In this document: one piece after another, positions 1,495 through 5,462 of the stretch
How positions within the stretch are numbered: the stretch's first letter is position 1
Layout: each line of letters begins with the position of its first letter
Source: Natrinema gari JCM 14663
GTDB lineage: Archaea; Halobacteriota; Halobacteria; Halobacteriales; Natrialbaceae
DNA: 45,040 nt
Direction: 5' to 3'
Assembly: GCF_000337175.1 (NCBI RefSeq)
Contig: NZ_AOIJ01000038.1
Coordinates: forward strand, 1-45,040
Translations under genes and position numbers: made by a program
The notes under the pieces: generated by a model
The model's database searches: none
What the model was told of the DNA's origin: nothing
Seen by the model: only the letters and a program-made list of their open reading frames with translations

Positions 1495-2256
1495 TCAGCC
1501 GGCGATGAGTGCGGCCAGCTTGCCGCTGAATGCGGACCCGGTGGCGGTCTGCCCGTTATTGTTGGACGCGTCGACCGACTGCTCCAGTGTCTGATTGAGC
1601 ATCTGGTTACCAACGGAACCTTCGATGGAGGTACCATCAGTAGTACCGTCGTCGTTGGAATTGCCGTTGTTGGACATGCTCTCAGCGGACGTGTCACCCG
1701 GGAAGTCACATTCGGTTGTGCCAGCTTTGACTACAACCTCCGAGATTGGCTCTTCAGATGTCCAACGGACGAGGTTTGGTTCGTTGGGTTCTTTGAACTC
1801 GACATCGGTAATCGTGACTCCCATAGCGTCGCCACCTTCTGGTTCGAACGAGGTCCCAGTCCATTCGAATTTCACGAGGAGGTTACCATCCGTATCGTAG
1901 AACTGGATGTTGCTAATCGCCGGACCGTCAGGATACTCACAGTTTGTGACCTCTCCTTGGAACAGCGCCCCGTTGCCATTATCGCCATTGTCGCCATCAT
2001 CGCCGTTTATATCGCCGAAGTCAATGTCGACCCCGGTCGCGTTCTGATCGGCGAACTGGAGCGCGTTCTGCTCGATCTGGTTCGCCTGCGAGACGTCTTG
2101 CCCCTGCTCGATGTTCACGCCTGCGATTCCCAGATCACCGGTCGGTTTGTCGTCGTGGTGATCCTCACCACCTGCAGCTGCCGTCCCTGCAAAGCCCATG
2201 ACCGCCAGGCTTCCAATTAACGCGAGCGTCAGTAGTACTGTGGATGTTCGTCTCAT
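1495..2256 (-). CDS. Secreted Q/N-motif protein with a beta-rich domain (253 aa)
   Basis: The first 28 residues form a Sec-type signal peptide ending in AGTAAAG. It is almost the same as the signal of the 129-aa protein at 2818-3207, which suggests common origin. Residues 49-72 read IEQGQDVSQANQIEQNALQF and then ADQN, a short version of the Q/N ladder of the 523-aa neighbour, followed by TGVDIDFGDI, close to the tail of the 129-aa protein. Residues about 100-190 look like a beta-sandwich with two cysteines (NCEY and ECDF) that could form a disulfide. The last part is Asn/Ser/Gly-rich and ends in a hydrophobic KLAALIAG. Base composition is less GC-rich than that of nearby genes, hinting at transfer. 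I infer a minor or accessory subunit of an extracellular assembly; function is unproven. Confidence 0.75.
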   Translation of the reverse strand: MRRTSTVLLTLALIGSLAVMGFAGTAAAGGEDHHDDKPTGDLGIAGVNIEQGQDVSQANQIEQNALQFADQNATGVDIDFGDINGDDGDNGDNGNGALFQGEVTNCEYPDGPAISNIQFYDTDGNLLVKFEWTGTSFEPEGGDAMGVTITDVEFKEPNEPNLVRWTSEEPISEVVVKAGTTECDFPGDTSAESMSNNGNSNDDGTTDGTSIEGSVGNQMLNQTLEQSVDASNNNGQTATGSAFSGKLAALIAG

Positions 2257-2817: not shown

Positions 2818-3207
2818 TTACAGGGGCAGTTCGTCGAAGTCGATGTCGACGTCGGTGTCGATCCCGGTCGAATTGGCGTCGTTGTCGTTGGCCTGGTTCG
2901 CGGAGATCGTGTACACGTCGTCAACGACGTTGACGTTGTTCTGGTCGACGTCTTGGCTCTGGTACGCAACGGTCTTCGCGTAGCTCGTGTCCGAACTGGC
3001 GTACGATGATGCGAGCTGGGTCTGTGAGTTGCTGTTACTCTGATCGTTGTTTATCGTAGTCGTCGCGCTCGAGTCCTGATCGATATCCACGGAGGAATTA
3101 ACGTCTGGGTTGATCTGCGGCTGTGCCGCTGCTGTTCCGGCGAGCCCCATGAAAGCGAGGCCGCCGATCAATGCTACCGTCAGTGTGAGCGTGAGTGCGC
3201 GTTTCAT
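2818..3207 (-). CDS. Secreted Gln/Asn-rich small protein (129 aa)
   Basis: The chosen start is the ATG at 3205-3207, because translation from it begins directly with a 28-residue signal peptide (MKRALTLTLTVALIGG onward, ending GTAAAQ). The mature part is about 100 residues, rich in Asn, Gln, Ser, Asp and Thr. It contains both halves of the ladder repeat seen in the 523-aa neighbour: ATTTINNDQSNSNSQTQ and YQSQDVDQNNVN. The tail TGIDTDVDIDFDEL matches the TGVDIDF motif of the 253-aa neighbour. There are no cysteines and no membrane anchor. I infer a small extracellular subunit, perhaps a nucleator or cap, by analogy with curli-like systems; that role is not shown by sequence alone. Confidence 0.75.
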   Translation of the reverse strand: MKRALTLTLTVALIGGLAFMGLAGTAAAQPQINPDVNSSVDIDQDSSATTTINNDQSNSNSQTQLASSYASSDTSYAKTVAYQSQDVDQNNVNVVDDVYTISANQANDNDANSTGIDTDVDIDFDELPL

Positions 3208-3890
3208 AGTGGATTCGGTCACCGTGTCAGTCGGGCACCACGCGTCTGACCACACCGGAGCGCATCCATAGCGGAGGTGCCTCGTCGTCTGGCGGCGCTG
3301 TTGCTGGTCGCAACTAAGCTGCCTCCTCCCGGTAGCGTTCCGATATGGCGCGTTGCCCGGTCGCTACTCATCACAGGGACCCATTTGAACCCGGCAAACG
3401 GTTTCGGGCCGAATAGCGGCATTAGAGCACCTGATTGGTGAGGCTAGCGTTCGGGCGGATCGTTCAGCGGCCGGCAGTTGAGTACTTGCCCTCGTTTCGA
3501 GGACGCTACCGCGTGCGTCTTCGATCCGTCGCGTTCGACCGCCTCAGTCTCTCCAGTGCCCCTGTGAAACGATCGGCACGCGACCACGATGCGCTAATAT
3601 TCGACTTCGGCGGCCGAAACGGTCCGCGAATCGTGAGCGTTCGCGTCGGTTTGCTTCGGCGCTGCCACGACGGCCTGTGACTGCGTGAAGACGATTTTGG
3701 TTGCGGAACCATAGTCCGGTATCCGCTCGAGAAGCCACCGATTTCCGCGGATAAGCAGCGGCCTATGGATTCGAAGGCCGCTTCATACTGCTGCCAACCT
3801 GTCGATAACAAAGGGACTCATGCGGATAGGATGATTTGCATCGCGGAGACTCAGAAACGAAAGACCATCACGATACAGATCACACGATCA
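3208..3890. other. Divergent intergenic region of the Q/N-protein locus
   Basis: About 680 bp separate the divergent starts at 3207 and 3891. Overlapping short frames here are Arg-rich and not credible. Two dyads stand out: TTCGGC-G-GCCGAA at 3606-3618, and an 8-bp repeat AGCGGCCT (3757-3764) / AGGCCGCT (3775-3782) about 110 bp before the plus-strand gene. They may mark operators or a structured leader. No clear TATA box is seen at leaderless distance for either gene. Confidence 0.4.
3757..3782. repeat. 8-bp inverted repeat upstream of the curlin-like gene
   Basis: AGCGGCCT and its exact complement AGGCCGCT are separated by 10 nt. The element lies about 110 bp upstream of the start at 3891 and could be an operator or a leader hairpin. 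No other copy was noticed. Confidence 0.35.
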
Positions 3891-5462
3891 ATGACAACCA
3901 CTACAACGAGACGCTCACGAGCTACGACACTCTTTCTGTCCTGTATGATCGCCCTGTCGATGGTCGCGGCCGGCGTGCCGGCTGCGACCGCAGGCGGAGA
4001 GGGTGAGTTGAATGCCGGAACGGTACACGCACTCGAGCAGGGTGAGGAACTCTATCTCGTGTTCGGAGCCGATTTGAGCGAGCAGTCGCTCGAAGAGTAC
4101 GTCAACGAGCACGCGGACGACTCGAGTAATGCCGACACCGAGATCGTTCAATACCAGGACGTCGATCAGGTCAACATCAACGAGCAAGGCTCTGCGGTGT
4201 CGATCGCGATCGACGGCGGCGAGGCAACCGCCATCCAGGAAGCGAACCAGGAGAACGACAACGTCCAGAGCGGCGAGGCGGTCACCGAGAGCGGTGGCGT
4301 CGAGACCGCGACAACCCAGTTCGAGAACGTCGGCGACGTCAACATCATTATCGGCAACGGCGGCGACCAACAGTTCGATGGCTGGGGGATCAAGGACAAG
4401 AAGGGCGACGACAAGACGATCACACAGGAAGCGGTTGCCGGCGTCGCCCAGTCCCAGACGGTCGGGCAGGTCAACTACAACAACCAGAGTACCGCCTTCG
4501 CCTTCGCGATGAACGACAGCGACGCGACCGCCCTCCAGCAGTCCTACCAGCGAAACGAGAACCTCCAGGAGGGGATGGCCAACGCCTCGAACGTCTACCT
4601 CGGTGACGGCAAGGTCGGGCACAAGAAGGACAAGTCGGGCGACCACGGCGCTGGCTCGAGTACAGGACAGGACGCTGACGCGCTGCTCGAGCAGTCTCAG
4701 GACGTCGTTCAGGAGAACGTCAATGAACAGGGCGGTGCAGTCGCCATCGCTATCGGCGAGAACAGTACCGCCACGGCGATCCAGTTCACCGACCAGAGCA
4801 ACCTTAACGAACAGATCGGGAGCGCCGACGCCTCGAACCTGATGGCGACGGCCACCGGAATGAACGTCGCGACCGCGGGCGATGTCAGCGGTGACATCCT
4901 CTCGACCGAGACCGAAGTCAGCGAACCGGACAAGGAAGACAAGAAAGACGGGATCGACGGCGAACAGGTCGCGACTGCTGGCGTCGCCCAGCAACAGGGG
5001 GTCGAACAGCGAAACATCAACCTGCAAAACACCGCACTGGCCATCGCACAGAACGGTAGCGAATCCACCGCGATTCAGCTCGCCTACCAGCAAAACTACA
5101 ACGCACAGGTCGGCTACGCCGACGCCATCAACGTCTACGCGAGCCCCGGCTACGTCACCGACGACGTTACCCGGACCTCGAGTACGACCGTGACGGTCGA
5201 CGGCAACGCGGGCGAGGACAACCCCGGCACGTCGTACGACTACGCCGGTTCCGCGAACCAGACGAACGACGCCGAGCAGACCGCGAGCGCGGCGATCGAG
5301 CAGAGCCAACTCATCACACAGGAGAACATCAACGAGCAACACACCGCCGTCGCGGTCGCCGAAGACGGCGGCAGTGCCGGGAGCTCACAGATCAGCCTTC
5401 AGGAAAACGAGAACGTCCAGCTCACGTCCGTCGCCTCGACGAACGTCTGGGCCGGCGCGTAA
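3891..5462 (+). CDS. Secreted curlin-like Q/N-ladder repeat protein (523 aa)
   Basis: The start is set at the ATG at 3891, because the upstream in-frame codons from 3765 do not look like a signal and this ATG begins a 35-residue signal peptide ending VPAATAGG. The mature protein holds five copies of an about 40-residue unit at residues 87-126, 187-226, 268-307, 367-406 and 471-510. The consensus is QxQxVxQxNxNxQxxAxAxA, then a short turn, then ATAIQxxxQxNxNxQ. Regularly spaced Gln and Asn with alternating small residues is the hallmark of curlin-type beta-solenoid amyloid repeats. Spacers of 40-65 residues are acidic or Lys/Asp-rich (for example around 165-175 and 240-252). There are no cysteines in the mature part, no C-terminal anchor and no PGF-type sorting signal. 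The protein is probably secreted and may self-assemble. Two smaller relatives lie just upstream on the other strand. Self-assembly is inference; the repeats are directly visible. Confidence 0.8.
   Translation: MTTTTTRRSRATTLFLSCMIALSMVAAGVPAATAGGEGELNAGTVHALEQGEELYLVFGADLSEQSLEEYVNEHADDSSNADTEIVQYQDVDQVNINEQGSAVSIAIDGGEATAIQEANQENDNVQSGEAVTESGGVETATTQFENVGDVNIIIGNGGDQQFDGWGIKDKKGDDKTITQEAVAGVAQSQTVGQVNYNNQSTAFAFAMNDSDATALQQSYQRNENLQEGMANASNVYLGDGKVGHKKDKSGDHGAGSSTGQDADALLEQSQDVVQENVNEQGGAVAIAIGENSTATAIQFTDQSNLNEQIGSADASNLMATATGMNVATAGDVSGDILSTETEVSEPDKEDKKDGIDGEQVATAGVAQQQGVEQRNINLQNTALAIAQNGSESTAIQLAYQQNYNAQVGYADAINVYASPGYVTDDVTRTSSTTVTVDGNAGEDNPGTSYDYAGSANQTNDAEQTASAAIEQSQLITQENINEQHTAVAVAEDGGSAGSSQISLQENENVQLTSVASTNVWAGA

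Follow-up and report, generated by a model that had tools for sequence, protein, structure and literature searches.

The main gene of the window (i.e., the whole stretch of 45,040 nt that we analysed) encodes a protein, P0001, whose sequence places it in a new family that lies outside curlin and, by the same measure, also outside FapC. We see an even chance that it is a secreted surface-matrix protein of Natrialbaceae whose Q/N layers stack into an amyloid-like fibre. Given that the curlin tests are negative while the architecture resembles that of FapC, we file the family as new and probably functional-amyloid-like. The original prediction that this haloarchaeal gene encodes a secreted protein of Q/N-ladder repeats is borne out by the translation, the signal peptide and ten copies of the repeat motif. 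The five units of about 40 residues that it had placed behind the signal peptide are confirmed as well, except that unit 3 is one residue longer and ends at residue 308. All features are listed in Table 1.

Table 1. Positions of the features discussed; coordinates refer to the window unless a locus is named.
Feature	Position	Strand	Remarks
P0002, second divergent secreted Q/N-rich protein	1495..2256	-	half-A match
P0003, divergent 129-aa secreted Q/N-rich protein	2818..3207	-	unit match of this copy weak
GATAACAAAG element	3804..3813	+	-87 from P0001 start codon; common to surface-glycan operons
P0001, main gene	3891..5462	+	523-aa secreted five-unit Q/N-ladder protein; conserved ORF
Sec-type signal peptide, residues 1-34	3891..3992	+	sequence and alignment; putative cleavage after ATA
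N-terminal segment LYLVFGADL..SLEEY, residues about 44-77	4020..4121	+	alignment and genome search
Unit 1, residues 87-126	4149..4268	+	motif count, profile (E 6.8e-22), 230-copy comparison
Unit 2, residues 187-226	4449..4568	+	motif count, profile, 230-copy comparison
Unit 3, residues 268-308	4692..4814	+	motif count, profile, 230-copy comparison
Unit 4, residues 367-406	4989..5108	+	motif count, profile, 230-copy comparison
Unit 5, residues 471-510	5301..5420	+	motif count, profile, 230-copy comparison
GATAACAAAG copies at glycan genes	L149 2038 and 6203; L150 6219		

The five-unit protein and its distribution

Behind its signal peptide and an N-terminal segment, P0001 consists of five units of 40-41 residues with linkers in between. 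We prefer the start at 3891 over that of a longer ORF from 3765, since several relatives carry in-frame stops directly upstream of the matching position. Identity is mostly 74-95% to the closest Natrinema and about 40-66% to other genera, and this conservation excludes the reading as a spurious ORF. Homologues (46-95% identity) are found in 28/28 other Natrinema genomes searched. The named collection comprises 47 relatives, all from Natrialbaceae (47/47), among them members of Natrinema, Natronorubrum, Haloterrigena, Halopiger, Natrialba, Halovivax, Natronococcus and other genera. A search of haloarchaeal genomes with the unit profile, as had been proposed along with the original prediction, was positive for 58/292 genomes of the class from 22 genera. 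Almost all of these are Natrialbaceae, with three positive genomes from two other families, and genome-wide counts yield five units per gene copy for most of the 58. About half of the loci retain the downstream conserved ORF together with the RadB-like and CBS genes, which suggests vertical descent of the locus.

One Natrinema copy (L017 from genome G010) carries an in-frame TGA in the signal-peptide region; the same genome holds a second homologue that is free of internal stops. For Natronorubrum bangense, matching copies of the region are present on the chromosome and on a plasmid (L040, L041), and the two 13.5-kb loci show the same coordinates and identical listed proteins.

P0001 has no NCBIfam or Pfam assignment; its match to HVO_0513_N (E 1) is below the cut-off, and one relative matches the same model with E 0.011. 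All export forms of the family share a strongly conserved N-terminal LYLVFGADL segment, and no other significant copy of YLVFGAD was found outside the family in the genomes searched. The segment may act as a cap, or else as a signal for assembly.

Each unit contains the motif QxxxQxNxNxQ twice, about 27 residues apart, with ten copies in P0001 (starting at residues 89, 116, 189, 216, 270, 298, 369, 396, 473 and 500), compared to a mean of 0.0025 and a maximum of 1 in 2000 shuffled versions of the mature protein. A comparison of 230 unit copies (46 proteins) gives unit lengths of 39-41 residues throughout, and linkers span 22-92 residues. Numbered by the unit profile, positions Q5, Q7, Q11, N13, Q17, Q35, Q39, N41, N43 and Q45 hold Q or N in 98-100% of these 230 units. 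Residues between them vary freely, and the remaining inward register is mostly A or V. Such near-invariant Q/N/A/V at every second residue is what would be expected of stacked beta layers. The unit profile reports exactly five copies in each of the main proteins (48/48) and no match among shuffled ORFs. Units at the same position share 62% identity across species vs. 46% across positions within one protein; the five unit positions are therefore old and have been kept separately.

For the structure prediction proposed along with the original prediction, we used AlphaFold2 (46 sequences). Within the model, every unit is all-beta, i.e., the units are predicted as strands only, with blocks of pLDDT 80-93, and the linkers are disordered. 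The confidence of the whole model is modest, with a mean pLDDT of 57.7 and a pTM of 0.53. A two-unit segment modelled alone was of lower confidence than the whole model (57.2, pTM 0.33). Because of the modest whole-model and the poor two-unit confidence, the layer model described below is based mainly on conservation. Fold searches in PDB and viral libraries gave nothing significant. In Foldseek, FapC was ranked first with E 1.1 and, in another search, second with E 2.5, and CsgA was a non-significant fourth (E 5.6). VIA-align yielded no Z of 2 or more. With respect to the Greek-key layer fold of FapC-type amyloids, the all-beta prediction of the units thus stands beside non-significant FapC matches and a poor two-unit model.

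Candidate partner genes, export and a shared upstream element

A heuristic search for divergent partner genes, which start 480-1,100 bp upstream of the main gene, was positive at 37-38 of the 48 loci. Their products are short, secreted and rich in Q, N, S and D, except that the copy of L069 is Gly/Asp-rich. Some partner proteins hold one unit of the P0001 type, i.e., two in L042 (E 5e-12 and 4e-10), two in L040 and L041, and others in L046, L054, L043 and L061. The unit copies in the window's P0002 and P0003 are more diverged. P0003 appears to be a single unit in which the two halves are exchanged; 3/2000 shuffles reach the score of its match to half-A (the first half of the unit). For P0002, which shows no significant Pfam family, the half-A match scores above 2000/2000 shuffles of the protein. 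Behind half-A, P0002 carries an inserted domain that is beta-like and contains two Cys, and its C-terminus is Q/N-rich.

The two-Cys domain of P0002-type proteins (ITFYNDDGDLEQ..TWTGDEF.., e.g., L031 188-808 and L068 266-1156) is also found solo or duplicated in nearby secreted proteins. Natrinema gelatinilyticum carries four tandem small secreted Q/N-rich genes (L036 788-5326), compared to one to three elsewhere. A third secreted gene recurs near the locus (L040 3491-4147, L042 3184-3816, L046 1377-1985); its product shows a repeated domain and then a VSQSTTVSQSSVNV-like C-terminus.

In most members including P0001, the signal is Sec-like and an anchor is absent. A PGF-CTERM-like tail is present in seven loci (L060, L064, L066-L068, L070, L077); in L068 it scores 45 bits vs. 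a cut-off of 24.5, and Pfam detects it in five members. Five loci (L072-L076) encode a canonical twin-arginine (Tat) signal of the RRGYLKG type, mostly along with Lys-rich tails. Both the PGF-CTERM tail and the Tat signals would be in accordance with display at the cell surface.

The GATAACAAAG element is located 85-87 or 98-99 bp 5' of the start codon in 37/48 loci. The window's own 4.0-Mb genome contains it five times vs. zero times for the reversed control, and three of the four other copies lie 35-186 bp 5' of surface-glycan genes in the same orientation. The first of these targets is a family-4 glycosyltransferase gene and the second a Gfo/Idh-DUF362-epimerase operon. The third begins with a gene which we take to encode a hexapeptide acyltransferase. 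Genes for a DegT aminotransferase, Gfo/Idh and a UDP-sugar dehydrogenase come next, and this set presumably resembles the wbp nucleotide-sugar pathway. Among ten genomes from six genera, GATAACAAAG sites were found for Gfo/Idh (10/10), the putative fibre gene (9/10), the acyltransferase (8/10) and the glycosyltransferase (4/10), where the tally counts fetched copies and further copies sit elsewhere in those genomes. That is, the element precedes surface-glycan genes in 10/10 genomes examined. Within the window, it was not found before the divergent small genes. Where it is 35-41 bp from the start codon, its role could be that of a core promoter or else that of a site for an activator. We infer that GATAACAAAG coordinates the expression of the main gene and the surface-glycan genes, whose glycans may form matrix or decorate proteins.

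Proposed fibre formation and its alternatives

For the fibre reading, we propose that each 40-residue unit forms one flat beta layer with its Q/N/A/V face inward, where the strands would be AxVxQxQxVxQxNxNxQ, AxAxA and ATAxQxxxQxNxNxQ. The five layers would stack via Gln/Asn side-chain ladders with the hydrophilic linkers looping outward. Open ends of the stack could join other molecules, such that stacking within the molecule is continued between molecules into an amyloid-like fibre comparable to those of FapC or CsgA, with an origin that would be independent of, or unrecognisably distant from, both. The divergent single-unit secreted proteins would nucleate, cap or decorate the stack. Export by Sec (Tat in one branch) would lead straight across the single membrane, and a CsgG-type channel would thus not be needed. 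PGF-CTERM anchors would tether some versions of the protein, and GATAACAAAG would tie its expression to surface-glycan synthesis. Glycan genes that serve N-glycosylation instead of a matrix could be a point against the matrix part of this reading.

As an analogy, FapC is a better architectural parallel to P0001 than curlin. FapC repeats are imperfect and almost invariably three, with long variable linkers, and each forms one layer, stacked by Asn/Gln ladders with conserved hydrogen-bond networks (PMC12822426). P0001 is likewise secreted with a fixed number of imperfect repeats, i.e., five units per homologue of length 39-41 with invariant Q/N in each, joined by variable linkers of 22-92 residues. 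FapC is also paired with a minor subunit, FapB, and both have a near-fixed repeat number (PMC12822426); small divergent secreted genes are found beside P0001. On the other hand, there are three repeats in FapC vs. five in P0001, which has its own motif QxxxQxNxNxQ, and the archaeal host has no outer membrane such that the FapF pore is not needed. Furthermore, no sequence homology to FapC was found, since the PDB sequence matches of P0001, A2 and A4 (E up to 10) include nothing relevant and no FapC.

The chief rival to the fibre reading is a discrete, non-polymerising surface beta-solenoid, i.e., one defined rod of five layers that would serve in adhesion, in glycan binding or as an S-layer-associated spacer. 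We consider it a serious contender, though rather doubtful. Five units in all homologues, in contrast to the 4 to 62 repeats of curlin (PMC10192328), as well as the separate conservation of the five positions argue for such a rod, but FapC and FapB are fixed in their repeat number, too (PMC12822426). Anchored forms and the co-occurrence of GATAACAAAG with surface-glycan genes would also suit a rod, while no binding domain was found in the NCBIfam and Pfam scans of the family's proteins. Finally, one-unit small proteins are hard to account for without stacking between molecules.

We regard it as improbable that P0001 is an acidic matrix protein, intrinsically disordered or glycosylated, in which loose beta association or a scaffold for glycosylation would be all that underlies the Q/N periodicity. 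While its linkers are acidic and predicted to be disordered and GATAACAAAG is shared with the presumably wbp-like nucleotide-sugar genes, the units are predicted as strands in high-scoring blocks. Moreover, alternating near-invariant positions and a near-constant length in 230 copies demand a precise fold.

The original prediction had noted a resemblance to curlin. Relatedness to curlin is not supported by any of the tests, and there is next to no chance that P0001 is a true CsgA/CsgB relative acquired by archaea via horizontal transfer. Both systems are secreted with Q/N-ladder repeats and small residues, combine a main gene with nearby partner genes, and P0001 has five repeats like E. coli CsgA. 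However, the proposed curlin profile search (PF07012) found nothing in the own genome, and no match exceeded the cut-off among 41 genomes, with E. coli as a positive control; a Pfam scan of 46 family members gave no curlin match. Direct comparison resulted in a blastp E of 4.0 and an hhalign probability of 0.1%. The curlin repeat has about 23 aa with the kernel N-x-psi-x-psi-x-Q-x-G-x-x (PMC10192328) vs. 40 aa for the P0001 unit. The full kernel is found 0 times in P0001 but 5 times in CsgA and 3 times in CsgB, and QX10Q occurs once compared to 7 times in CsgA. CsgG (PF03783) is absent from the own genome, just as no CsgG-like gene had been predicted. As all of these comparisons are negative, from the family model to the operon context, we reject curlin membership.

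An archaeal amyloid without the bacterial machinery had been put forward as a novelty. As such it is not new, because the SH/MspA sheath proteins of Methanospirillum and Methanothrix are already described as extracellular amyloids (PMC6242892, PMC10593813). Relatives of SH are reported from Methanotrichales, Methanomicrobiales, Alkanophagales and Thermofilales (PMC11576556), and HVO_1403 of Haloferax is an unconfirmed amyloid candidate (PMC12520557). These are archaeal extracellular proteins as well, amyloid (SH) or candidate (HVO_1403), but the reported SH/MspA lineages differ. We found no prior description of the family, its unit, its partner genes or the glycan link in the open-licence literature, and nothing relevant there on Natrinema secretomes or matrix proteins.

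A more specific form of the fibre reading, which we put forward tentatively and with less than even confidence, is a two-component haloarchaeal amyloid. Here, a five-layer major subunit would be complemented by a varying set of single-layer nucleating or capping subunits, co-made with surface glycans under one DNA element, with a layer chemistry of independent origin and no export channel dedicated to it.

Haloarchaeal biofilms are reported to stain with amyloid dyes, though no gene behind this is confirmed (PMC4180959). We provide a defined gene family, known here mostly from Natrialbaceae, with candidate partners and a candidate regulatory link to surface glycans. Genome editing is established in Natrinema gari J7-2 (PMC10433800). 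If fibres do form, Q/N-layer fibres would have arisen in archaea with a different unit, in molar salt and without an outer-membrane pore.
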